Source of the DNA: Starkeya sp. ORNL1
Lineage (GTDB): Bacteria; Pseudomonadota; Alphaproteobacteria; Rhizobiales; Xanthobacteraceae
Reading direction: 5' to 3'
Length of the DNA: 64,000 nt
Assembly (NCBI RefSeq): GCF_012971745.1
Contig: NZ_CP048834.1
Location: 496,001 to 560,000, forward strand
The position numbers were made by a program, and so were the translations under genes. How positions within the stretch are numbered: the first letter of the stretch is position 1; each line of letters starts with the position of its first letter. Under the pieces are notes generated by a model, which did no database searches, was not told where the DNA came from, and was given only the letters and a program-made list of their open reading frames with translations. Of the stretch, positions 9,237-31,311 are shown in pieces.

Positions 9237-9731
9237 ATGGGACTGATGCTCAATGGCAGCTGCCGATGTGGCGCCGTGACGTTCACGGTCGAGAGCCACA
9301 CGCCGCAGCCCTACCAGCTCTGCTATTGCTCGATCTGCCGCAAGACCGCCGGAGGCGGCGGCTTCGCCATCAACATCATGGGCGTCGCCGATACGCTCGA
9401 TGTTGAGGGCAGGGATGCCCTCGGTATCTACCGCGCCGAGATCGAGGATCATCAAGGCCGCTGCAGCACCTCTTCGGGGCAGCGCCATTTCTGCCGCTCC
9501 TGCGGATCCGCGCTGTGGATGTTCGATCCGACCTGGCCCGACCTGGTGCATCCGTTCGCGTCGGTGATCGACAGCGACCTGCCGGTGCCACCGGAGAAGA
9601 CGCATCTGATGCTGCGGTTCAAGGCGAGCTGGGTCGAGCCGGACGTCGGGCCGGACGATCAGACGTTCGAGGAGTACCCGGTCGAATCGATCGAGGAATG
9701 GCATCGCTCGCGCGGCCTGTGGATCGATTGA
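9237..9731 (+). CDS. GFA/CENP-V family zinc protein
   Basis: 164 residues of the GFA (glutathione-dependent formaldehyde-activating enzyme-like) fold. The zinc ligands are visible: GSCRCGAVTF near residue 8, CYCSICRK near residue 30 and HFCRSCGSALW near residue 85. Members bind zinc through these Cys pairs; only some act on S-hydroxymethylglutathione, so the substrate here is open. AGGGAG lies about 7 nt before the ATG. It is transcribed in the same direction as gabD but 163 bp away. Confidence 0.85.
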   Translation: MGLMLNGSCRCGAVTFTVESHTPQPYQLCYCSICRKTAGGGGFAINIMGVADTLDVEGRDALGIYRAEIEDHQGRCSTSSGQRHFCRSCGSALWMFDPTWPDLVHPFASVIDSDLPVPPEKTHLMLRFKASWVEPDVGPDDQTFEEYPVESIEEWHRSRGLWID

Positions 9732-9894
9732 CGGGAGGGGCCGCGCGCGGCGCTGCGGTGCTCCGGCATGCCGTCTCGGCATCGCCGTCACCGCATCTGC
9801 GCATTTGTCTTGGCTGCGCGGATGGTGGACATACATGTCCCTGTGAACGTTGCTGCCCCGCCATGCCGGAGGCCGCCGGCAAGAGGATAACGCC

Positions 9895-11367
9895 ATGAAC
9901 ACCATCGACCGCGCCATCACCGCCCTGCCGCTGAATGATTCCGGACTGCTGCGCCGCCAGTGCTACATCGACGGCGAATGGGTAGGCTCGCCCGGCATCG
10001 ACATCACCAACCCCGCCACCGGCGGCCTGGTCGGCCGGGTGCCGGACTTTGGTGCGGATGAGGCGACGCAGGCGGTGGAAGCCGCGGCCCGTGCCTTCAA
10101 GCCCTGGGCGGCGAAGACGGCAAAGGAGCGCTCGGTGCTGCTGCGCCGCTGGTTCGATCTCATCATCGCCAACAGGGACGACCTGGCGCTGATCCTCACC
10201 TCCGAGCAGGGCAAGCCGCTCGCCGAGGCCAAGGGCGAGATCGACTACGCCGCCGCCTTTGTCGAATTCTACGCCGAGGAAGCCAAGCGTATCGCCGGCG
10301 AGACGCTGCCGAGCCACCGGGCGGACGCGCGCATCCTGGTGCTGCGCCAGGCGACCGGCGTCGTCGCCGCCATCACGCCGTGGAACTTCCCGGCGGCGAT
10401 GATCACCCGCAAGGTGGCGCCGGCGCTGGCTTCCGGCTGCACCGCGGTGGTGAAGCCGGCCGGCGAGACCCCGCTGACCGCGCTGGCGCTCGTCGCGCTG
10501 GCGGAGCGTGCCGGTATCCCGGCCGGCGTGTTCAGTGTCCTCACCGGCAATGCCCGCGCCATTGGCGGCGTGTTCACCAGCCATCCGGCGGTGCGCATCG
10601 TCACCTTCACCGGCTCCACCGAGGTCGGCAAAATCCTGATGAAGCAGGCTGCTTCCACGGTGAAGAAGGTGGCGCTGGAACTCGGCGGCAACGCGCCCTT
10701 CATCGTGTTCGACGATGCCGATCTCGACGCGGCGGTCGAGGGCGCCATGCTCTCCAAGTTCCGCAATATGGGACAGACCTGCGTGTGCGCGAATCGCATC
10801 TATGCGCAGGCCGGCATCTATGACGCCTTCATCGAGAAGCTCACCGCCGCGGTCGCCAGGCTGAAGGTCGGCAATGGCGTGGAGGAGGGGGTGACGCAGG
10901 GCCCGCTGATCAATCCGGCGGCGATCGAGAAGGTCGAGGCGCATCTTGCCGACGCCACGGCCAAGGGCGCCCGCATCGTCTCGGGTGGGCACCGCCATAC
11001 GCTGGGCGGCACCTATTTCGAGCCGACCGTGGTGGCGGGCGTGACCAGCGACATGGCGGTGGCGCGTGAGGAGACCTTCGGCCCGGTGGCCCCGGTGTTC
11101 CGCTTCGAGACCGAGGACGAGGTGATCGCGGCCGCCAACGACACCGAGTTCGGCCTTGCCGCCTATTTCTATGCGCGCGATGTCGGCCGGGTGTTCCGCG
11201 TCGGCGAGGCGCTGGAATACGGCATTGTCGGCATCAATTCCGGGCTGATCTCGACCGAGCTGGCGCCGTTCGGCGGCATGAAGGAAAGCGGCTTCGGCCG
11301 CGAGGGCTCGCACCACGGCATCGACGAGTTCGTCGAGAAGAAATACATGCTGGTCGCCGGGCTCTGA
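9895..11367 (+). CDS. gabD: Succinate-semialdehyde dehydrogenase
   Basis: 490-residue aldehyde dehydrogenase of the GabD type, oxidising succinate semialdehyde to succinate with NAD(P)+, the last step of GABA breakdown. Visible features are YIDGEWVG near residue 22, the cofactor strand TPWNFPAAMITRK near residue 160, FTGSTEVGK, the general base in LELGGNAPFIVFDDADLD near residue 262, the catalytic Cys in NMGQTCVCANR near residue 295, and EETFGPVAPVF near residue 392. AAGAGGA lies 8 nt before the chosen ATG. A REP-like pair and a terminator follow. The ureohydrolase and amidase at 13.4-15.3 kb could supply GABA (inference). Confidence 0.92.
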   Translation: MNTIDRAITALPLNDSGLLRRQCYIDGEWVGSPGIDITNPATGGLVGRVPDFGADEATQAVEAAARAFKPWAAKTAKERSVLLRRWFDLIIANRDDLALILTSEQGKPLAEAKGEIDYAAAFVEFYAEEAKRIAGETLPSHRADARILVLRQATGVVAAITPWNFPAAMITRKVAPALASGCTAVVKPAGETPLTALALVALAERAGIPAGVFSVLTGNARAIGGVFTSHPAVRIVTFTGSTEVGKILMKQAASTVKKVALELGGNAPFIVFDDADLDAAVEGAMLSKFRNMGQTCVCANRIYAQAGIYDAFIEKLTAAVARLKVGNGVEEGVTQGPLINPAAIEKVEAHLADATAKGARIVSGGHRHTLGGTYFEPTVVAGVTSDMAVAREETFGPVAPVFRFETEDEVIAAANDTEFGLAAYFYARDVGRVFRVGEALEYGIVGINSGLISTELAPFGGMKESGFGREGSHHGIDEFVEKKYMLVAGL

Positions 11368-20441: not shown

Positions 20442-21341
20442 TCATCTCATGAGCGCTTCGTTCGAGAGCCAGTCCGCGAACGCGGCAGCCAGCAAGGCAT
20501 GGGGGCCGCCGGAATCATAACCGAGCCGATAGTCGGGGCCGGCGATGCGCAGATCGGGAAACGGTTCGACCAATTCGCCGCGCGCCAGCAGGTCGGCGAC
20601 CACTTCGATCGGCGCGGCCAATAGTCCCTGGCCGGCGAGCGCCGCCTCCAGCGCGATGTAGAAATGGCCGAATCGCGTCGCCCGGCCGGCCTGGTCGGGC
20701 GGTAGCCCGGCTGCAATGAGCCACCTTGAGAGTTCTCCCGGGCGGGTCACGGCTTCGAGCAACTGGCTCCCAGTCAGGCGCGAGGGGCCCTCCCTGGCGT
20801 GGTCGCCGAGGACGTCGCCAACGATGTCGGCTCTCGCCACCAGTGTGATCTCCTCGCGGAACAGCGACACCACGCGCAGATCGGAAGGCAGCGCATCGCC
20901 GCGGCGGATGACCACGTCGAAGGGGATGTCGGCCCAATTCTCGGTGGTGTGCGTCGGCCGCACCAGCACGTCGACGTCACCGATCTGGGCCTGGAACATC
21001 GGCAGGCGAGGGATGAGCCAGCGCATCGCGAAGGTCGCCGGCGCGATGACCCGCAGCACTTCCGGCGCAGCCTGTGGCGCCATCGTCTCGATAGCCGAGG
21101 CCATCAGGTCGAACGCCGCGCCGGTCGCTGTCGCGAGTTGGGCAGCGGCTGCCGTCGGCAGCATTTGCCGCCGATTGCTCGCGAACAGCGGCACGCCGAG
21201 CCAGGCTTCGAGCACCGAGAGCTGCTTGCTCACCGCGCTGTGCGTCACCCCGAGCTCGTCCGCCGCGCCGGTCACGCTGCCGATGCGGGCCACTGCTTCG
21301 AACGCCACCATTGCCTTGAGGGGCGGAAGATTGCGCCGCAT
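20442..21341 (-). CDS. LysR family regulator divergent from the phnA operon
   Basis: 299 residues. The N-terminal winged helix is of the GcvA-like LysR group (LPPLKAMVAFEAVARIGSVTG, HSAVSKQLSVLE), followed by the two-lobe LysR effector domain (about 90-295). It is divergent from the phosphonoacetate hydrolase gene with about 150 bp between, the standard arrangement for a LysR activator of a catabolic operon; phosphonoacetate operons elsewhere also carry a LysR gene (phnR). The effector is probably the phosphonate or an intermediate (inference). A 20-bp dyad lies in the shared promoter region. Confidence 0.9.
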   Translation of the reverse strand: MRRNLPPLKAMVAFEAVARIGSVTGAADELGVTHSAVSKQLSVLEAWLGVPLFASNRRQMLPTAAAAQLATATGAAFDLMASAIETMAPQAAPEVLRVIAPATFAMRWLIPRLPMFQAQIGDVDVLVRPTHTTENWADIPFDVVIRRGDALPSDLRVVSLFREEITLVARADIVGDVLGDHAREGPSRLTGSQLLEAVTRPGELSRWLIAAGLPPDQAGRATRFGHFYIALEAALAGQGLLAAPIEVVADLLARGELVEPFPDLRIAGPDYRLGYDSGGPHALLAAAFADWLSNEALMR

Positions 21342-21447
21342 TCATCTGTTCCGAAATCTCACACGATGACGGAACTAATATCGCTTTACTCCAAGCCTCA
21401 CCACTCAATAATAGATCATACATAACAACGGCTAAAGACAACTGAAA

Positions 21448-21467
21448 AACGCACAAGCTTATGCGTT
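21448..21467. promoter_or_regulatory. Candidate LysR operator upstream of phnA
   Basis: AACGCA-CAAGCTTA-TGCGTT is a dyad with perfect 6-bp arms and 18 of 20 symmetric positions, 32 bp before the chosen phnA start and about 107 bp from the lysR start. Position and symmetry suit a LysR-type binding site. The surrounding 150 bp are more AT-rich than the flanking genes. Confidence 0.45.
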
Positions 21468-21499
21468 GAGTGCGACAGTTTTATTACGGATTGGTGTTG

Positions 21500-22780
21500 A
21501 TGGATATGTCAAGGCAGGACGCCGATGCGTCTCGCGAATACGTTGTCGTGAATGCGCGGCGCTATCGCAAGCCGGTGCAGCCGGTGGTGGTCATCTGCTT
21601 CGACGGATGTGACCCGGCCTATATCGAGGCGGCGCAGGCGGCAGGCGTCATCCCGACCCTGACGCAGATGCGGGGCGACGGGTTCGAAGCGCTGGCGCTG
21701 GCGGCGATGCCGACCTTCACCAATCCCAACAATGTCTCCATCGTCTGCGGCGCGCCGCCGACGGTCCATGGCGTCGCCGGCAATTTCTATCTCGACCGCG
21801 AGACCGGCGAGACCGTGATGATGCTGGACGCGGCGCTGATGCGGGCACCGACCATCCTCGCCGGCCTTGCCAGCGCCGGCAGCCGGGTCGCCGTGGTGAC
21901 CGCGAAGGACAAGCTGCGCAAGGCGCTCGCCCATGGGCTTACGCTCACGCCCGGTCTCGGCGCCATCGCCTTCTCGGCGGAGTATGCCGACGCCTCCACG
22001 GAGGAAGAGCACGGCATCGCCAATGCGGCGGCCTTCGTCGGCGTTCCGAAGCCGGCTCAGTATTCGGCAGAGCTGTCGCTCTTCGTGCTCGATGCCGGCA
22101 TCCGGCTCATCGAGGCCGGGCGCGCCGACGTGCTCTATCTCTCGCTGTCCGACTATGTGCAGCACAAGCACGCGCCCGAGACCGAGGAAGCGCTGGCCTT
22201 CATGGCTGCCGTCGACCAGCGGCTCGGCCGGCTGATCGAACTCGGCGCCATCGTCGGAGTCACCGCCGATCACGGCATGACCGACATGGCCGGGCCGGAC
22301 GGAGCACCCAGCGTGGTCTATCTCGGCGACGTGCTGGATGCGGAATTCGGGGAGGGCGCTACCCGCGTCATCTGCCCGATCACCGATCCTTTCGTGCGCC
22401 ATCATGGCGCGCTCGGCGGCTTCGTCCGCATCCACATTCTCAGGGACGGCATTGACCCCGCCACGGTGCTCGAACGGATTCGGGCAAAACCGGGTGTGGC
22501 GCTGGCCTTGCCCGGTGATGAGGCGGCCGCCCGCTTCGAAATGCCTGGGGATCGCGAGGCCGACATCGTCGCCGTCGGCGCGGCCGGCGTCGCGCTCGGC
22601 GCCCGTGCCGTCGACCACGACCTCAGCCAGCTCGCAGGCGAGCGGCTGCGCTCGCACGGCAGTCTTTCCGAGCAGAGCGTGCCTTTCATCCTCTCGCACC
22701 CGCTGCGCGGCACCGAGCCGGTGCCGGAAGCGCTGCGCAACTTCGACATTTTCGACTTTGCCTTGAACCGGGTGGGGTAG
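21500..22780 (+). CDS. phnA: Phosphonoacetate hydrolase
   Basis: 426-residue zinc enzyme of the alkaline phosphatase superfamily, cleaving the C-P bond of phosphonoacetate to acetate and phosphate. Characteristic parts are the metal Asp in VVICFDGCDPAYIEAA near residue 33, the nucleophile Thr in MPTFTNPNNVSIV near residue 72, the metal pair in SLSDYVQHKHAPE near residue 220, TADHGMTDM near residue 255, and a late His in RSHGSLSEQS near residue 390. Length matches known PhnA (about 420). ATG 21500 is chosen over GTG 21470; the ribosome-binding site is weak. It leads a six-gene operon. Confidence 0.92.
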   Translation: MDMSRQDADASREYVVVNARRYRKPVQPVVVICFDGCDPAYIEAAQAAGVIPTLTQMRGDGFEALALAAMPTFTNPNNVSIVCGAPPTVHGVAGNFYLDRETGETVMMLDAALMRAPTILAGLASAGSRVAVVTAKDKLRKALAHGLTLTPGLGAIAFSAEYADASTEEEHGIANAAAFVGVPKPAQYSAELSLFVLDAGIRLIEAGRADVLYLSLSDYVQHKHAPETEEALAFMAAVDQRLGRLIELGAIVGVTADHGMTDMAGPDGAPSVVYLGDVLDAEFGEGATRVICPITDPFVRHHGALGGFVRIHILRDGIDPATVLERIRAKPGVALALPGDEAAARFEMPGDREADIVAVGAAGVALGARAVDHDLSQLAGERLRSHGSLSEQSVPFILSHPLRGTEPVPEALRNFDIFDFALNRVG

Positions 22781-22783
22781 GGG

Positions 22784-24082
22784 ATGCGCCGCGCCGTCAT
22801 CGTCATGCTCGATGGGCTTCGCCGCGATTTCGTCGATGAACGGCGGACACCCCATCTCGCCGCGCTCGCTGAGCGCGCCGAGCGCTTCTCCGCCTATCGC
22901 TCGGCCTTCCCGTCTGCCACCCGTGTGGTGTCCTCGACACTGGCGACCGGCTGCTATCCGGCTCGCCATGAGCTCCAGGGCAACACCATGGTGCTGATGG
23001 AGGAGGGGCGCCTGGTCCGTCACGATGCCGGCCTGCCCGACTTTCTGCAATGGAAGCGCCAGGTGACGGGGCGATCGCTCGCCATGCCGACCATGGCCGA
23101 GCGCGTGGCCAACCATGGCGGCGCGATCATCTTCAACAATGTCTCGCCCGGCGCTGCCTATGCGCACGATCCCGACGGCCACGGGCAGGTCCATCACCGC
23201 GCCGGCTCCTATGGTCCGGGGCGCACGCCGCTGGCCCGCCAGCTCGACATCGCGCTGGACGTCGCCGGCGACCGCGCCATGACGGAGCGCTTCATCACCG
23301 AGGCGCTTGGCGAGGCGGCTCCTGCTCTCGCGGTGATCTGGTTCGGTGAGCCGGACCATATCCAGCACGAGCGGCCGCTCGGCTCGCCGGAAAATCTCGC
23401 CGTGCTGCGCGAGGCCGACCGCAATCTCGGCATAATCATCGCGGCGGTAGAACGCCTGCGCGAGGGCGGCGACGAGGTGCTGCTCATTGCCGGCTCCGAC
23501 CACGGCCACGAGACGGTGACCGGCATCGTCGACATCGAGGACGAACTGGTCACCGCAGGCCTGAAAGCTTCGATGCGGTCCGAGGACGTGGTGATTGCCG
23601 CCAACGGCACCTCGGCGCTGGTCTATGTTCATCCCGACCATGCGGCCCGGCTCGACGCGCTCGACGATTTCCTCCATTCGCGCCCTTGGGCCGGTGTCGT
23701 GATCTGTCCTGAGGACCTGGGAACGGTCGGCCAGGCGTCGCACCACGGCCTCGCCTTCGCCATCTCCCTGAAGGGCGACGACGCCCCCAACGAATTCGGC
23801 GTGCCCGGCTCCTGCCTCGCGGTGAAGCCGCAGGGCGGCAAGGTCGACCGGCTCGGCTTCGGCCAGCATGGCGGGCTCAATGCCTATGAGCAGTCACCGG
23901 TCCTCGTCATTGACGGTCCCGGCTTCACGGCCGGCGCCTCGCGCAGCGCGCCTGCGGCCGTCGTCGATATCGCCCCGACCGTGCTTTCCCACCTCGGCCT
24001 GCCGGCCGAGGGCATGGACGGCACGCCGCTGCAAGCTTTCCCGCAACCGTCCCGCTCTCCTGTCCCGGAGGATCGTTCATGA
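22784..24082 (+). CDS. Alkaline phosphatase superfamily hydrolase (phosphodiesterase type)
   Basis: 432 residues with the metal and nucleophile motifs of the type I phosphodiesterase/nucleotide pyrophosphatase group: VIVMLDGLRRDF at the start, PSATRVVSSTLATG near residue 43 (Thr as likely nucleophile), WFGEPDHIQHE near residue 187, AGSDHGHETV near residue 240, and GFGQHGGLNAYE near residue 360. It starts 3 bp after phnA. It is a distant relative of PhnA but clearly another enzyme; a phosphonate ester or phosphodiester that is hydrolysed before or beside PhnA is the simplest idea (inference). The substrate cannot be read from sequence. Confidence 0.85.
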   Translation: MRRAVIVMLDGLRRDFVDERRTPHLAALAERAERFSAYRSAFPSATRVVSSTLATGCYPARHELQGNTMVLMEEGRLVRHDAGLPDFLQWKRQVTGRSLAMPTMAERVANHGGAIIFNNVSPGAAYAHDPDGHGQVHHRAGSYGPGRTPLARQLDIALDVAGDRAMTERFITEALGEAAPALAVIWFGEPDHIQHERPLGSPENLAVLREADRNLGIIIAAVERLREGGDEVLLIAGSDHGHETVTGIVDIEDELVTAGLKASMRSEDVVIAANGTSALVYVHPDHAARLDALDDFLHSRPWAGVVICPEDLGTVGQASHHGLAFAISLKGDDAPNEFGVPGSCLAVKPQGGKVDRLGFGQHGGLNAYEQSPVLVIDGPGFTAGASRSAPAAVVDIAPTVLSHLGLPAEGMDGTPLQAFPQPSRSPVPEDRS

Positions 24083-25635
24083 CGATCGCTAACCTCAATC
24101 GCCGCGCCTTCCTGGCCAGCACCGCCGCAGCCGGCTTTTCAGGCCTGCTGCCGGACTTCGCTTTCGCCCAGGCCGCCACTGGCTCGCCGAGCCATGGCGG
24201 TGTGCTGAAATATGCGACGCTCGGCCTCGACACCGCTGATCCGCATCGCCACACCGGGAGCATCGCCGTCCAACAGATCTATGCCGAGGCGCTGACCTCG
24301 ATCGCCGGTGACGGCTCGGTCGAGCCCTTCCTGGCGGAATCCTTCGATATCTCGCCGGACGGCAAGACCTATATGTTCCGCTTGCGCGAGGGTGTCGTCT
24401 TCCACAATGGCGACGTCCTGACCGCCGCCGACGTGGTCGCCAATGTCGAGCGCGTGAAGACCAAGGTCACTGGCGGCTGGCTCGCCTCGGCGATGAAGCT
24501 GGTCGACACCGTGACCGCGCCGGACACGCGCACCGTTGTCCTCGCCATGCGCGAGCCCTATGCGCCGCTTGCCAATCTGATGTCGGAACTGTGGATCCTG
24601 TCACCGAAGTCCGACGGCTGGGCGGAGACCATCAAGACCCCGATCGGCACCGGGCCGTTCCGCTTCGGCGAGTGGCAGCCCAAAGTGAAGCTCACCGCGC
24701 CGGCCCACACCGCCTATTGGCGCAAGGGGATGCCCTATCTCTCCGCCATCGAGGCGGACCTGCGCGACGATGTCGACCGCTCGCTGGCGCTGCGCGCCGG
24801 GGAGTTGCACATCGCCAGCGTCTCCACCGACATCGCCAAGCAACTGGCTAGCGACACCAACATCAAGGTCCGCCCGCTCAAGGATGCCGGTTGGTACTTC
24901 GTCGCCTTCAACAACCGCAAGCCGCGCAAGCCGTTCGACGATGTGCGGGTGCGCCAGGCACTGGCCTATGCCGTCGACAAGGCCGCCTTCATGAACTTCG
25001 CCTCCTCCGGCACCGGTGTCGTCAGCAACCAGATGGTCGGGCCGGGCAATCTCTATTTCGACGAGGCTACCTTCAAGGCCGATCTCCACGCCAAGCCGAA
25101 CCTCGACAAGGCGCATGCGCTGCTCAAGGAAGCCGGCGTCGATCCGGTCAAGGAGACCATCGAGTTCGTGTCCTGGCAGGAGAATTATCCGCAGGTCGTG
25201 GTGCAAATGGTGCGCAAGCTCGGCTTCAAGGTGAACCATGTCGCGCTCGACGATCTCGGCGCGCAGAAGCGCCTCGGCCAGTACGACTGGGACATGAACT
25301 GCATGGACTCCGGTCCGCGCGCCGACATCTTCCTGCGCTACGTGCGCATGATGAGCGACGGCCCGAACCCGGTGCTGTGGGGCGGCGTACAGGATCCCGA
25401 GTTCGACAAACTGGTGAAGGCCGCCGTGGCAGAGCCCGCCATCGACGCCCGCAAGAAGCTCTATCTCGCCGCCTGGAAGCGGGTGATGGACAATTATTAT
25501 GTCGTTGTGCTCGGCCTCGCAGCCGACCAGATCGCCATGCGCACTGACGTGAACGGCTATGAGCCGGGCTTCACCTGGTCGCCGAACTGGGTGAGCGGCG
25601 GCGTCGCGCAGACCTGGCTCGCGGGCCGGTCATGA
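24079..25635 (+). CDS. ABC transporter substrate-binding protein, peptide/opine family, Tat-exported
   Basis: 518-residue family 5 solute-binding protein (DppA/OppA/NikA type). A twin-arginine signal (NRRAFLASTAAAG, cleavage near AFAQA) directs export of the folded protein. Family features are GVLKYATLGLDTADPH, an ESFDISPDGKTYMFRLREGV segment near residue 93, VRVRQALAYAVDKAAF near residue 290 and GTGPF near residue 192. Its ATG overlaps the preceding stop by 4 bp. Ligands in this family are di- and oligopeptides, opines, nickel or glycosides; here the ligand is expected to be the substrate of the two upstream hydrolases (inference from operon). Confidence 0.9.
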   Translation: MTIANLNRRAFLASTAAAGFSGLLPDFAFAQAATGSPSHGGVLKYATLGLDTADPHRHTGSIAVQQIYAEALTSIAGDGSVEPFLAESFDISPDGKTYMFRLREGVVFHNGDVLTAADVVANVERVKTKVTGGWLASAMKLVDTVTAPDTRTVVLAMREPYAPLANLMSELWILSPKSDGWAETIKTPIGTGPFRFGEWQPKVKLTAPAHTAYWRKGMPYLSAIEADLRDDVDRSLALRAGELHIASVSTDIAKQLASDTNIKVRPLKDAGWYFVAFNNRKPRKPFDDVRVRQALAYAVDKAAFMNFASSGTGVVSNQMVGPGNLYFDEATFKADLHAKPNLDKAHALLKEAGVDPVKETIEFVSWQENYPQVVVQMVRKLGFKVNHVALDDLGAQKRLGQYDWDMNCMDSGPRADIFLRYVRMMSDGPNPVLWGGVQDPEFDKLVKAAVAEPAIDARKKLYLAAWKRVMDNYYVVVLGLAADQIAMRTDVNGYEPGFTWSPNWVSGGVAQTWLAGRS

Positions 25636-26501
25636 CCTTGGCGCTCGCCATGGCCGCGGAGGGCAGGGCGCGTACCGGATTTCCGGTGCGCGCCAGCCTG
25701 TCGGTGATCATCCTCGCTATCATCGTGGCGGTGGCCATCGCCGCCCCGCTGATCGCGCCGTATGACCCGCTCGACCAGGACCTGCTGTCGCTGAACCAGT
25801 GGCCAGGTCCCGAGCACTGGCTGGGCACCGACCATATTGGACGCGACGTGTTCTCGCGCCTCGTCATGGGCGCGCGCACCACGCTGCTGGTCGGCCTTGG
25901 CGGCGCCGCGGCGGCATTCGTGCTCGGCGCCGGTTTCGGCCTCGTTGCGCTCTCGCTCGGCCGCATCGCTGAAACCATCCTCTACAGCGCCATCGATCTC
26001 ATCCGCGCCATGCCGGACGTGCTGCTGGCGCTGCTGCTCATCGTCGCGCTCGGCGAGGGGGCAGGGCCGGTGGCGATCGCGCTCGGCATCTCCTTCGCGC
26101 CGTTCTTCGCCTATGTGGCGCGCGCCATCTACCGGCGCGAGGCGGCGAAGGATTATGTGACGGCGGCGCGGCTGTTCGGCGGCGGCCCGCTGCACGTGCT
26201 GCGCCTGCATTTCGCGCCGAACCTTGTAGGCGGGCTGGTGACGCAGGCGGCGATCCTGATGCCGCGCTGCATCGTCACTGAATCCGTGCTCAGCTTCCTC
26301 GGCCTCGGCTCCTCGCCCGACGCCCCGACCTGGGGCCGCATGGGGGCGGAGGCCAGCCGCTATATCGAGGTGGCGCCGCACACCATACTGGCGCCGGTGC
26401 TGGCCATCATCCTGCTGACGCTCTCGCTGTCCTTCGTCGGCGATGCGGTGCGCGTGAGGCTCGATCCGCTGCGCGAAGCTGACGCGACGAGGTCGGTATG
26501 A
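25632..26501 (+). CDS. ABC transporter permease, DppC type
   Basis: 289 residues, about six membrane segments. The N-terminal OppC-like segment (IIAIVAVAIAAPLIAPYDPLDQD region) and the following HWLGTDHIGRDVFSRLVMGARTTL are diagnostic of DppC/OppC permeases; the EAA loop, contacting the ATPase, is at about residues 165-190 (REAAKDYVTAARLFGGG). It overlaps the neighbours on both sides by 4 bp. In this operon the C-type permease comes before the B-type, the reverse of the usual dpp order. Confidence 0.9.
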   Translation: MTLALAMAAEGRARTGFPVRASLSVIILAIIVAVAIAAPLIAPYDPLDQDLLSLNQWPGPEHWLGTDHIGRDVFSRLVMGARTTLLVGLGGAAAAFVLGAGFGLVALSLGRIAETILYSAIDLIRAMPDVLLALLLIVALGEGAGPVAIALGISFAPFFAYVARAIYRREAAKDYVTAARLFGGGPLHVLRLHFAPNLVGGLVTQAAILMPRCIVTESVLSFLGLGSSPDAPTWGRMGAEASRYIEVAPHTILAPVLAIILLTLSLSFVGDAVRVRLDPLREADATRSV

Positions 26502-27409
26502 AAAGCCTCGCCGCCGCCAGTCTCGCCCTCGTCCGCATGGTTGCGCAGGCGGTGGGCATCATGGTGATCGTGTTCCTGCTGGCCCGTGTCATCCCCGGCG
26601 ACGCCGTCGACTTCAAGGCGATCCAGGGCGATCTGACGGCCAGCCAGCAGCAGGCGATGCGCCATGAGCTCGGGCTCGACCAGCCGGTGCTGACCCAGTT
26701 CGGCGAATGGACCTTGCGCGCGCTGCACGGCGATTTCGGCGAGTCGCTGCGCTTCAGCCGGCCGGTGTCGGACATGCTGGCGACCGCGCTGCCGGGCACG
26801 CTGGTCTTTGCCAGCCTGAGCTTCGCACTGGCGCTCGCGCTCGCCATCGGCATCGCTGTCGGCGCGGTTATGACGGGCAGCCCGATTCTGCGGGCGCTGG
26901 TCGATATCACCAACATCTGGTCCATCGCGCTGCCCACTTTCTGCATCGGCGTGGTCGGCATCCTCATCTTCTCGGTGTGGCTGCACTGGCTGCCGGTGCT
27001 GGGAGGCATGCTGCTGCCGGTGTGCATCATCGGCATCGACGGTGCCGGGCAGATCGTGAAGCCGCTCTACGAGGAACTTCGCGAGGCGGCGACCTCCGCG
27101 CATGTGCGCACCGCGCGCGCCAAGGGGCTCTCGCCCTGGCGCATCACCCTCCGCCATCTGATGCCGACTGCGGTGCCGGTGGCGCTAGCTTTGTCGAGCC
27201 TGGTGCTGGCGAGCCTTGTTGCCGGAACCCTCACCATGGAAGTGCTGTTCGGCCTGCCCGGCATTGGCAGCCTGATGCTCAATGCCATTCACGGGCGCGA
27301 CTATCCGGTGATCCAGGCTTCCATACTGGTCACGGCGGTGGCCCTGGTCCTCATCAACGGGCTCACCGATCTGCTCCACCGCCTGGCCGATCCGAGGCTA
27401 TCCCGATGA
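26498..27409 (+). CDS. ABC transporter permease, DppB type
   Basis: 303 residues with six membrane segments and the DppB/OppB features: VFLLARVIPGDAVDF near residue 25, RHELGLDQPVLTQFGEW near residue 53, and the EAA loop LREAATSAHVRTARAKGLS near residue 190. The final helices contain LEVLFGLPGIG-like sequence (MEVLFGLPGIGSLM). It overlaps the ATPase gene by 4 bp. Together with the C-type permease it forms the membrane channel of the importer. Confidence 0.9.
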   Translation: MKSLAAASLALVRMVAQAVGIMVIVFLLARVIPGDAVDFKAIQGDLTASQQQAMRHELGLDQPVLTQFGEWTLRALHGDFGESLRFSRPVSDMLATALPGTLVFASLSFALALALAIGIAVGAVMTGSPILRALVDITNIWSIALPTFCIGVVGILIFSVWLHWLPVLGGMLLPVCIIGIDGAGQIVKPLYEELREAATSAHVRTARAKGLSPWRITLRHLMPTAVPVALALSSLVLASLVAGTLTMEVLFGLPGIGSLMLNAIHGRDYPVIQASILVTAVALVLINGLTDLLHRLADPRLSR

Positions 27410-28995
27410 GTGCGCCGGTTCTTGCTCTTCGTAATCTCGTCATCGCCAAGGGGGCACGCCGGCTGGTGGACGGCGTGTCACTGACGCTGGTGCGCGGCCG
27501 CACGCTCGGCGTCATCGGCGAGTCCGGCTCCGGCAAATCGCTGACCGCGCTGGCCATCCTCGATCTGCTGCCTGCAGGGTTGACGGTCGATCCGGCCTCC
27601 GCCATCGAGATCGACGGCGTTGTACTACCGCGGCGCGATGAACGGGCCATGCGGGCGCTGCGCGGCCGCAAGGTGGCCATGGTGTTCCAGGATCCGATGG
27701 CCTGCCTCAACCCGTTCATGCGGGTCGGCGCGCAGCTCGACGAGGTGCTGGCGAAACTTGGGCAGGCGCGGCCGGTCCGCGGCCATCGCATCGAGGAACT
27801 GCTCCGCGAAGTCGACCTTCCCGATCCTGCCGCGCTCGCCCGCCGCTACCCGCACGAACTCTCAGGCGGCCAGCAGCAGCGGGTGATGCTGGCGATGGCG
27901 CTCGCCGGCGAACCCGACCTGCTGATCGCCGACGAGCCGACCAGCGCCCTCGATGCCAGCGTCCAGGCGGAGATCGTGGCGCTGCTCGCGGCGGTGCAGC
28001 GCCGGCGCCAGCTCGCCATGCTCATCATCACCCACGATCTCGCGGTGGCCGGCGCGCTGGCGCACGATCTTGCGGTGATGCAGCGCGGCCAGATCGTCGA
28101 GACCGGCCCCGCGGCCAACATCCTCGAAGCGCCAAGGCATTCCTATACGGCACGCCTGGTCGCTGCGCGCCGCACCCTGCTGGCGGCAATGTCGGATGCT
28201 CGCCTCGACGCGCGGGCGCCGTTGGTCGAGGCGGAGGCGATGGCTGTCGACTATGCCGGCCGCGGCCTGTTTGCTCGCCCGTTCCGGGCGGTGGAGGGCG
28301 CCTCGTTCCGCCTGCTGCCCGGCCGCACGCTCGGCATCATCGGCGAATCCGGGTCGGGCAAGAGCACGCTGGCGATGGCGGTGGCCGGACTGAGGCCGCT
28401 CGCGCAAGGAAGCATCCGGCTGCTCGGCCATGAGTTGACACCGTCGAGCCGAACCGTGCCCCGCGCGCTACGCCGGCGCTGCCAGGTGGTTTTCCAGAAC
28501 CCCTATGGCGCGCTCAATCCGCGGCTCGCTATCGCCCGCGCGCTGGCCGAGCCGCTCGACCTCGCCGGGATTCCGGCGCGCGAGCATGCCGGACGGATCG
28601 CAGCGGCGCTGCAGGAGGTCGGCCTCGAGGCCGAGCATGGCACGCGGTTCCCGCACCAGCTCTCCGGCGGCCAGCGCCAGCGCGTCTGCATCGCGCGGGC
28701 ACTGATCTGCGAGCCGGATGTGCTGATCTGCGACGAGGTGGTCTCGGCGCTCGACATGACCGTGCAGGTGCAGATCCTGCAGCTTCTGCGACGGCTCCAG
28801 GCCGAGCGCGGCTTCGCCATGGCGTTCATCGGGCACGACATCGAGGTGGTGCGCTGGATCGCCGACGACGTGCTCATCATGAACAAGGGCCGCGTCGTCG
28901 ACAGTTGCCCGGCCCATGACCTGACGGCGACCCCGGCACGCGACGCCTACACGCGCCATCTGCTTTCCGCCCGGCTGAAACCGCTCGCGGCGTAG
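27406..28995 (+). CDS. Fused double ABC ATPase, DppD-DppF type
   Basis: 529 residues holding two complete ABC domains. Domain 1 has Walker A GESGSGKSLTA near residue 41, signature LSGGQQQRV near residue 155 and Walker B LLIADEPTSALD near residue 175; domain 2 has GESGSGKSTLA near residue 315, LSGGQRQRV near residue 420 and VLICDEVVSALD near residue 440. In most dpp operons these are two separate genes. ATG 27406 overlaps the permease stop (ATGA). It energises the importer and is the last gene of the operon. Confidence 0.92.
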   Translation: MSAPVLALRNLVIAKGARRLVDGVSLTLVRGRTLGVIGESGSGKSLTALAILDLLPAGLTVDPASAIEIDGVVLPRRDERAMRALRGRKVAMVFQDPMACLNPFMRVGAQLDEVLAKLGQARPVRGHRIEELLREVDLPDPAALARRYPHELSGGQQQRVMLAMALAGEPDLLIADEPTSALDASVQAEIVALLAAVQRRRQLAMLIITHDLAVAGALAHDLAVMQRGQIVETGPAANILEAPRHSYTARLVAARRTLLAAMSDARLDARAPLVEAEAMAVDYAGRGLFARPFRAVEGASFRLLPGRTLGIIGESGSGKSTLAMAVAGLRPLAQGSIRLLGHELTPSSRTVPRALRRRCQVVFQNPYGALNPRLAIARALAEPLDLAGIPAREHAGRIAAALQEVGLEAEHGTRFPHQLSGGQRQRVCIARALICEPDVLICDEVVSALDMTVQVQILQLLRRLQAERGFAMAFIGHDIEVVRWIADDVLIMNKGRVVDSCPAHDLTATPARDAYTRHLLSARLKPLAA

Positions 28996-29022: not shown

Positions 29023-31002
29023 CTATTGCGGCGGTACCGGCTGGCGGCGCGGATCCGGCTGGGCGTCGGTAGAGCCCTTCGACCCGCCCTGCTGCCCCGG
29101 AGCCTGTTCGGGCCGCGGCTTTTCCTGCTGCGGCCGCTGCCCCTGATCTTCACGCTGCTGCATCTGCTGGCGTGGCTGCTGCTGGCCGCGCGGCTGCTGC
29201 GCATCCGGTTGCGGCTGGCGGCGCTGTTCGGGCTGCTGGTTTCGCGGCGCGGTGTCGGGACGCTGCTGTTGATCGGGGCGCTGGTCCGTCTGCGGCTGGC
29301 GGCGATCCTGCTTCTGGCTCGGCGGCTGCTGCGCATCCGGCTGCGGCTGACGGCGCTGATCGGGCTGCTGGCCTTTCGGCCCTGCCTCCGGCCGCTGCTG
29401 GTCGGGGCGCTGCTGCGCATCCGGGCGGCGGCGATCCGGTTGCTGCTGGGTTTCCTGAGGCTGCGCATCCGGTTGCGGCTGACGGCGCTGATCGGGCTGC
29501 TGGCCTTTCGGCCCTGCCTCCGGCCGCTGCTGATCGGGGCGCGGCTGCTGCGCATCCGGACGGCGGCGATCCTGCTGCTGCTGCTGTTGGTTTCCCTGAG
29601 GCTGCGCATCTTGCGGCTGCGGGCGGCGCTGATCGGGCTGCTGGCCTTGAGGCCCTGCGTCCGGCCGCTGCTGATCGAGGCGCTGCTGCGCATCCGGGCG
29701 GCGACGATCGGGTTGCTGCTGGGTCCCCTGCGGCTGGCCTTGCTGCCCGTTGGGCTGATTCTGCCGGTTCGGCGCGCCGATTCCCGGCTGGCCGGACGGC
29801 TGATCGCTTCGCGGGGCGCCGGCCGGTGCCTGCACCTGGCGCGCCCGTTCACGACGCTCCTGATTGAAACGATCGAGGCGCTGCTGTCGCTGCTCAATCG
29901 CCTCGCGACGCTCGCGCTCCAGCGCATCGCCACGCGCATCCGCTTGCTGGCGAAGCTCCCGAATGCGGTCGGCGCGATCGCGCTCCAGTTCCTGCACGTC
30001 GCGCTGATAGCGGTCGCGGTCGGATTGGCGGCGTTCACGCAGTTCGCGCCGGCGATTGTCATCGAGAGCGCTGAGAAGGGCGACGGACGGTGCGAACAGC
30101 CCGGGCGTATCGTCGCGCACATATTGGCGTACGACGACGCGGCGGTCTGGCTCGATGGTGCGCACCACGCGTCGGGGCGGCCCGAAGCGGTCGCCGAACG
30201 CGATGCGCGGCGCGAAGACGCCGATGCGCCCGCCGGCGTCGTCATAGAAGAGGTCGTCGCTCCGATCCACGTCCACGATCTCGCGGCTGACGATTCGGGT
30301 GCGGGCCACCCGGTCATAGGCGCCGCGTTCGATGCCGCGATTGACGTAGTAGCCATTCTCCCAGATCGGGTCGTATTCCTGCGGCGCGGCGCGCAGATAG
30401 ACGCTGATCTGGGGAATCGGCGCGGCATGGATGCCGATGTCCCGCTCGCCCATGTACTGGTCGTCGATGAAGACCCAGCTTTCCGCAACGGGAGCGTCAT
30501 AGTGGCTCGCCCGGCCGGTGGCGAAGCCGTCGCGATCGGGTGCGATGGGCGCCCAACCGGTGCGGCCGCCGCCCCGCCGCCACGTCACCCAGGCCGGCGC
30601 CCAGGTGTCGCCCGGAACCCAGAACCAGCCATAGGCCGGATCGTAGCTCCAGCGGCCGTAATGATAGGTTGCCCAGCCGAACGGCTCGTCGGAATCCCAG
30701 TACCAGCCATAGGCGTCGGTCCAGACCCAGCGTCCCTCCTGATAGGGCCGCCAGCCGGGGCCGACATCGGAGGGCACGAACACGTACCGATAGTCCGGGT
30801 GCTCGACCCATGTGCCGTGATCGGCGAGCTGGTCATAGAAGACGTTGATGTCCATCGGGGCGCCCGCTCGCGGTCCGCCTTGGGGACCAGCCTGTGCCAG
30901 GCGTATCGCAGAGGTCTCCGCATTGGCAGGCGGCACGAGCGAGCTGGCAAGGAAGCTTGCCGCCAGGCCAGCAACGAGCCATCGGCTTCCAGAATTCATC
31001 AT
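29023..31002 (-). CDS. DUF6600-type secreted protein with long Gln/Pro-rich repeat tail
   Basis: 659 residues. A signal peptide (about 1-28, ending VPPANAE) is followed by an aromatic-rich region at about 45-190 with repeats of the YGWYWDSDEPFGWATYHYGRW / PAYGWFWVPGDTW kind, typical of DUF6600/FecR-associated proteins. A charged helical segment (about 315-390) follows, then about 250 residues of tandem repeats rich in Gln, Pro, Asp and Arg. Related proteins are exported and of unknown function. It is convergent with the dpp-type operon and separated from it by 27 bp. AGGGA precedes the ATG at 31002; an internal ATG follows directly. Confidence 0.8.
   Translation of the reverse strand: MMNSGSRWLVAGLAASFLASSLVPPANAETSAIRLAQAGPQGGPRAGAPMDINVFYDQLADHGTWVEHPDYRYVFVPSDVGPGWRPYQEGRWVWTDAYGWYWDSDEPFGWATYHYGRWSYDPAYGWFWVPGDTWAPAWVTWRRGGGRTGWAPIAPDRDGFATGRASHYDAPVAESWVFIDDQYMGERDIGIHAAPIPQISVYLRAAPQEYDPIWENGYYVNRGIERGAYDRVARTRIVSREIVDVDRSDDLFYDDAGGRIGVFAPRIAFGDRFGPPRRVVRTIEPDRRVVVRQYVRDDTPGLFAPSVALLSALDDNRRRELRERRQSDRDRYQRDVQELERDRADRIRELRQQADARGDALERERREAIEQRQQRLDRFNQERRERARQVQAPAGAPRSDQPSGQPGIGAPNRQNQPNGQQGQPQGTQQQPDRRRPDAQQRLDQQRPDAGPQGQQPDQRRPQPQDAQPQGNQQQQQQDRRRPDAQQPRPDQQRPEAGPKGQQPDQRRQPQPDAQPQETQQQPDRRRPDAQQRPDQQRPEAGPKGQQPDQRRQPQPDAQQPPSQKQDRRQPQTDQRPDQQQRPDTAPRNQQPEQRRQPQPDAQQPRGQQQPRQQMQQREDQGQRPQQEKPRPEQAPGQQGGSKGSTDAQPDPRRQPVPPQ
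29240..29780. repeat. In-frame tandem repeats inside the DUF6600 gene
   Basis: A unit of about 132 bp (44 codons; QPDRRRPDAQQ, DQQRPEAGPKGQQPDQRR) occurs about three times with near identity between the copies centred near 29370 and 29500, and with more drift elsewhere. Its multiple-of-three length keeps the frame, so repeat number may vary among strains. Confidence 0.7.
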
Positions 31003-31311
31003 AGACAAGTTCCCTACGCATACGAGAAGGCACGGATTAACGCGATTGCCGCCTTTTGGTTGCGAAGCAATCAGCATAATTGCGAGGGTAATAGCGCTCC
31101 AAATTATTGTGGCGCAAACATGTCAATGAATAGATCGGTGTTCAGGTATGCTATCGCGTTGCTCGTGCAGATTGCGAAACTGGAGCGAATGACGCCGTCA
31201 TATGTTTGCCTGAGTTGGCGAACGCTGCGTCGTTCCTTTACGCTTGGCACGGAGACGCAGGCCGCGGGCTTCTTACAGGCTCGCGCGGCGTCGCCTCCAG
31301 CCCACGGCCCG
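31003..31311. other. Gene-free upstream region
   Basis: 309 bp between the DUF6600 gene and the ABM gene, both minus. It is relatively AT-rich near 31040-31130 and should contain the DUF6600 promoter. I see no gene and no clear repeat. Confidence 0.4.

Follow-up and report, generated by a model that had tools for sequence, protein, structure and literature searches.

The closest described relative of the locus considered here is the phnA–phnR locus of Pseudomonas fluorescens 23F, which, as described in PMC10574752, comprises the phosphonoacetate hydrolase PhnA, three putative transporters, and the upstream LysR-type regulator PhnR, responding to phosphonoacetate and required for induction by it, with no second hydrolase named. 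That source treats phosphonoacetate as a compound considered synthetic, a biogenic origin having been deduced from how widely phnA occurs (PMC10574752). The PhnWYA pathway for 2-aminoethylphosphonate also ends in PhnA, and in a published census 121 out of 145 phnA genes are clustered with phnY, leaving 24 (PMC12366243). Here, we describe a window of 64,000 nucleotides from Starkeya sp. ORNL1 (NZ_CP048834.1, positions 496,001–560,000), lying within one 6.29-Mb contig, whose positions 20442–28995 hold a gene unit that shares PhnA, a LysR-type regulator and transporter genes with the locus of strain 23F, but has in addition a phosphodiesterase-like hydrolase (PDE) and a five-part Dpp-type importer. 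The phnA and PDE genes form a conserved pair with exchangeable importers, and we propose that the pair may release and degrade phosphonoacetate taken up as an ester.

Gene unit and control region

The regulator gene is divergent from the other six (positions are those of the window):

20442–21341, minus strand: LysR-type regulator, GcvA-like (PF00126 and PF03466; best NCBIfam match GcvA, 182.2 bits, below the cut-off of 288)
21347–21413, no strand: conserved control region (alignment of seven genus relatives)
21500–22780, plus strand: PhnA, phosphonoacetate hydrolase (TIGR02335, above the cut-off)
22784–24082, plus strand: PDE, hydrolase resembling nucleotide pyrophosphatase/phosphodiesterases, predicted phosphonate ester hydrolase (PF01663)
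24079–25635, plus strand: family 5 substrate-binding protein (PF00496, SBP_bac_5)
25632–26501, plus strand: permease C, DppC/OppC-like (PF00528, BPD_transp_1, and PF12911, OppC_N)
26498–27409, plus strand: permease B, DppB/OppB-like (PF00528, BPD_transp_1)
27406–28995, plus strand: fused two-domain ATPase, DppD–DppF-like (two ABC_tran stretches)

A 3-bp gap separates phnA from the PDE gene and the four following junctions are 4-bp overlaps, which is suggestive of co-transcription. Gene order, coordinates, gap, and overlaps are as given in a preliminary description of this stretch, to which we add the fusion of the ATPase domains. The ATPase exceeds the cut-off of the NCBIfam dipeptide ATPase subfamily NF008453 (439.1 vs. 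408 bits), and with an SBP_bac_5 protein, two permeases and two ATPase domains the importer is complete for the Dpp type. The frame of PhnA is open from GTG 21470 and ends at 22780; ATG 21500, aligned in seven out of seven genus relatives, is the most likely start judging from this alignment.

In the divergent region, TGTTCC at 21347–21352 is kept in seven genus relatives, including the window, and 22 out of 23 positions of the block 21368–21390 are invariant in the same set; together, the two form an inverted pair of GTTCC and GGAAC. TTTACT-16-AATAAT, at 21385–21412, resembles a promoter. Since the promoter scan yielded one site vs. a mean of 0.9 in shuffles, only conservation counts as evidence for the control region.

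Next to the end of the operon, a 684-amino-acid frame (29023–31077, minus strand) is strongly enriched in Gln, Pro, and Arg in its C-terminal half.

Conserved phnA–PDE pair with exchangeable importers

A PDE search of 101 relatives gave 14 matches at E ≤ 0.001, some of them weak, and 40 neighborhoods derived from PDE and phnA matches were compared. The order phnA–PDE–binding protein–permeases–ATPase is also seen in loci L056, L057, L062, L065, L081, L082, L083, and L084, and this recurrence rules out a chance placement of an unrelated importer beside phnA. In L085, the pair stands with a far more distant family 5 set; in L058, L060, L061, L063, and L080, it is followed by a UgpBAEC-like set; and L086, with a PDE relative at 32% identity, has no phnA. 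Genome G005 carries two phnA–PDE clusters, L082 with the Dpp-type set and L085 with the distant family 5 set and a Na/Pi symporter. In L080, phnA lies in two frames (9665–10785) beside an open PDE gene and importer, reflecting decay or an assembly error.

Named genomes were covered by a contig scan with a 20-row PDE alignment, and the best 80 of 135 relatives were considered; several of the records come from metagenome bins whose names are questionable, and some loci lie on the same contigs as those above (e.g., L107 and L060), the two sets not being summed. Among the 78 loci with at least 1300 bp of upstream DNA (the other two are too short to tell), phnA is directly upstream of PDE on the same strand in 47. 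The conservation on which the preliminary description had staked its proposal is therefore found, and it extends across genera.

The importers vary. A Dpp-type binding protein accompanies 24 of the 47 pairs, a Ugp-like one, 14, and neither is recognized by this criterion in nine: L157 (Na/Pi symporter beside a divergent family 5 set), L121 (a different family 5 protein), L163 (PhnD-like protein, PF12974, together with a PhnE permease above the cut-off, 251.9 vs. 216.7), L129 and L130 (TRAP-type set, seen by a scan of DctP and DctQ in L129 and by similarity in L130), and Bradyrhizobium loci L120, L125, L126, and L128, with an amidase upstream. The label “Ugp-like” is loose, as all four proteins score below the Ugp cut-offs (the binding protein, 70.9 vs. 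411), and the binding protein finds its best solved match in a putative maltose-binding protein, ahead of UgpB; we take the set to be of the CUT1 type. With the same pair standing beside UgpBAEC-like, PhnD/PhnE-like, and TRAP-type sets, the class of the importer does not bear out the larger substrate that had been deduced from it.

Regulators vary as well, with a LysR match near 24 pairs, a SorC-type one (PF04198) near 22, and neither near one. As a SorC-type regulator stands beside the Dpp-type set in L056 and L057, importer and regulator have been exchanged separately. In the PDE tree of 97 distinct rows, all 16 phnA-linked Ugp-like rows fall inside one 28-row group (support 93/90) and the Dpp-type rows spread through the rest, which suggests that the Ugp-like importer came in by exchange at a later stage.

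Of the 52 PDE-linked rows in the 84-row PhnA tree, 49 group in a single clade (100/99) that contains no PDE-less row; L156 falls just outside, and L129 and L130 are far away. The pure 49-row clade persists after addition of 52 phnA loci (FastTree, 136 rows), the PDE-linked rows coming mostly from the PDE scan, so that the purity of the clade depends on the census from the phnA side. A single grouping of all 52 rows is rejected (p-AU 0.014), and L129 and L130 have a distant PhnA with the same PDE family; thus, the pairing originated, or was re-established, on more than one occasion, the PhnA of these two loci seemingly displaced or recruited anew. Their PhnA reaches only 46% identity, and the pair has TRAP-type genes and an amidase as neighbors (about 8.7–15.9 kb).

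In the class sample of 385 genomes, phnA is present in 10 out of 12 genomes with PDE vs. 34 out of 373 without it (Fisher 8e-9), the counts being lower bounds, as up to four candidates per genome were scored; the phylum sample of 398 genomes gave four out of five and 16 out of 393, respectively. The class-wide association is weakened by the adjacency of phnA and PDE in only three of the 12 genomes, by the relatedness of the genomes, and by the presence of phnA in only six of 32 searched genomes with unpaired PDE.

Our literature search, with most subscription papers outside its reach, found no publication on the phnA–PDE pair, and the text covered of three genome-context studies of phosphonate clusters uses none of the terms phosphodiesterase, pyrophosphatase, oligopeptide, amidase, or alkaline phosphatase. 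What PMC5351497 calls “phnA” in Salmonella was set aside as a different gene.

Catalytic and binding residues

PhnA scores 547.6 bits on TIGR02335 (cut-off 407.55), its nearest solved chains being the phosphonoacetate hydrolases 3szy and 1ei6. Asp35, Asn95, Lys136, Lys138, Asp218, His222, Asp257, and His258 are present in 136 out of 136 PhnA rows, and His386 in 135, the remaining row having a gap; we take these residues to be the metal ligands and the Lys pair.

PDE matches PF01663 and, more weakly and over residues 5–92 only, PF00884; it has no NCBIfam match at E ≤ 0.001 and no signal peptide by eye. The nearest solved chains are nucleotide pyrophosphatase/phosphodiesterases (NPPs), namely, the Xanthomonas-type 2gsn (28.7 bits) and ENPP7 5tcd (33.9 bits). 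D10, T46, N67, D191, H195, D239, H240, and H362 are invariant in 93 out of 93 family rows and align with the Thr nucleophile, the Asn, and the six metal ligands of both chains, whose roles they presumably retain. PDE differs from the NPPs in the low scores, in Arg47 after the nucleophile, also invariant in the 93 rows, and in the linkage to phnA. These residues suit a phosphonate ester substrate, supporting the earlier proposal that the second hydrolase splits such an ester, and PDE is expected to cleave a P–O ester and not a carbon–phosphorus (C–P) bond. Phosphonate monoester hydrolases, whose reaction is the one predicted for PDE, are sulfatase-type enzymes with formylglycine; PDE instead has a Thr nucleophile and belongs to the PF01663 fold family.

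The importer shares all its parts with the Dpp/Opp importers, whose binding proteins include the opine-type AgaA (6hlx), the best solved match of the binding protein (117.4 bits); it differs in its fused ATPase domains, in the operon shared with phnA and PDE, and in the peptide anchors. Asp408 and Arg355 are the peptide anchors of E. coli DppA. In the MAFFT alignment of 35 family members, the position of Asp408 is Pro in all 35, and that of Arg355 is Gln in 24, Glu in nine, Val in one, and Gly in one; a profile alignment pairs Asp408 with D410 of the window, which is not invariant in 27 phnA-linked members. Thus, the anchors are conserved in neither alignment, which at about 27% identity to DppA is suggestive only, and speaks against the phosphonopeptide offered as one possible cargo in the preliminary description. 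S411, G412, P413, R414, and D416 are invariant in the 27 members. The N-terminus of the binding protein appears Tat-like by eye. The protein matches SBP_bac_5 only, and neither the PhnD type (PF12974) nor the AepX type, assigned to pfam13343 in PMC8316502.

Source of phosphonoacetate and competing explanations

The TIGR02335 searches found 33, 46, and 23 places above the cut-off in the family, class, and phylum samples, respectively (95 after deduplication), and PDE adjoins phnA at 11 of these 95. The phnY gene lies within 10 kb at one out of 11 PDE-linked places vs. 60 out of 84 others (Fisher 1.1e-4); several stretches are truncated by contig ends, so that phnY could have escaped detection on either side of this comparison. 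Among the 11 genomes with the Dpp-type unit, that of the window included, PhnY is above the cut-off in none, PhnW in two, and PhnJ of C–P lyase in nine. In the window genome, the best scores are 370.5 vs. 635.65 for PhnY and 120 vs. 400.8 for PhnW, both below the cut-off, and catabolism of 2-aminoethylphosphonate is therefore rejected as the role of the unit. A feeding route of PhnA without PhnY is likely; this part of the distinct phosphonate route envisaged in the preliminary description is supported, and a peptide cargo is not. Another in-cell source of phosphonoacetate may be imagined, import being the simpler explanation.

Other arrangements also occur. In the family to which the window's genome belongs, the nine phnA loci scoring highest on TIGR02335 (L047–L055) lack both PDE and phnY in their vicinity, which is a further context of phnA; in L047, PstS adjoins phnA. 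Conversely, phnY is found near ten Bradyrhizobium-type phnA–PDE loci (nine distinct sequences; above the cut-off where checked, L060), so that two feeds meet at PhnA there. L060, L098, L099, L100, L104, L107, L121, L128, and L133 have Liv-type importer genes, amidase, phnA, PDE, and phnY, most of them with a Ugp-like set; in these clusters, amide, ester, and aldehyde feeds possibly enter one PhnA.

With moderate confidence, we favor a serial route for the window's unit. Its cargo would be a conjugate of phosphonoacetate, most likely a P–O ester bearing an alcohol on the phosphonate group, with serine and glycerol as candidate alcohols; O-phosphonoacetic acid serine would be such an ester. The binding protein and the Dpp-type importer would take up the intact ester, PDE in the cytoplasm would cut the P–O bond via Thr46 and two metal sites, giving the alcohol and free phosphonoacetate, and PhnA would split the latter into acetate and phosphate. 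The LysR protein would turn the unit on, the inducer probably being phosphonoacetate, as for PhnR in strain 23F. Among natural products, O-phosphonoacetic acid serine is already known, and a role as the head group of a phosphonolipid has been suggested for 2-hydroxyphosphonoacetate (PMC12723261).

Several observations weigh against the serial route. PDE loci without phnA make up 33 of the 80 named ones (two with too little upstream DNA), and phnA is found elsewhere in only six of 32 searched genomes with unpaired PDE, with none in 26 at E ≤ 1e-30. Aldehyde dehydrogenases below the PhnY cut-off are present in all 11 genomes with the Dpp-type unit, and one of them might make phosphonoacetate. 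In L163, the PhnD-like protein falls short of the TIGR03431 cut-off (80.3 vs. 261.1), and ordinary phosphodiesters may be substrates of NPP-like enzymes.

The unpaired loci and genomes imply that the PDE family must have uses without PhnA, and hence the main rival remains parallel phosphorus scavenging, in which the importer would carry phosphodiesters and perhaps phosphonoacetate, PDE would hydrolyze phosphate diesters, and PhnA would independently cleave phosphonoacetate. This agrees with the phosphodiesterase activity of the NPP relatives and with Bradyrhizobium loci L101, L110, L113, and L151, where PDE stands with a Ugp-like set alone (the L110 genome has three phnA genes elsewhere); we nevertheless consider it rather unlikely, as the tight order with phnA at the 5′ side in 47 out of 78 loci argues for a shared substrate chain, and so do the pair-specific PhnA clade and the pairing of PDE with the distant PhnA of L129 and L130. 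Scanned neighbors of phnA-less PDE include amidases, a SorC-type regulator, TctC proteins, and unrelated housekeeping genes; some of these loci retain a Dpp or Ugp set, which ties the importer to the PDE substrate. Less probable still is an amide or peptide of phosphonoacetate as the cargo, freed by an amidase or peptidase encoded elsewhere, with a side role for PDE: an amidase match (PF01425) occurs near 19 of the 47 pairs (Pfam-checked in L120, L128, L129, and L163), but the window operon and most Dpp-type clusters have none, and the peptide anchors are not conserved. That PDE is a second C–P hydrolase for another phosphonate is very improbable, since, despite its distant kinship with PhnA (profile comparison probability 93.8%), about 26 alignment columns, among them those of the PhnA Lys pair, are missing from PDE, whose nearest solved relatives are phosphodiesterases.

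More broadly, and tentatively, at somewhat less than even confidence, the pair may represent a separate branch of phosphonate catabolism, with a distinct PhnA clade and a P–O esterase, plug-in importers of the Dpp-type, UgpBAEC-like, PhnD/PhnE-like, and TRAP-type classes, and an amidase in some lineages. Such a branch would consume phosphonoacetate conjugates of other organisms, so that phosphonoacetate would come from conjugates and not from 2-aminoethylphosphonate.

The phnA–PDE pair offers a testable answer for a part of the phnA genes without phnY, namely, conjugated phosphonoacetate, and identifies an esterase, an importer, and a regulator as candidates to be assayed. If the serial route holds, it would be a second way of feeding PhnA, a known phosphonate-degrading enzyme.

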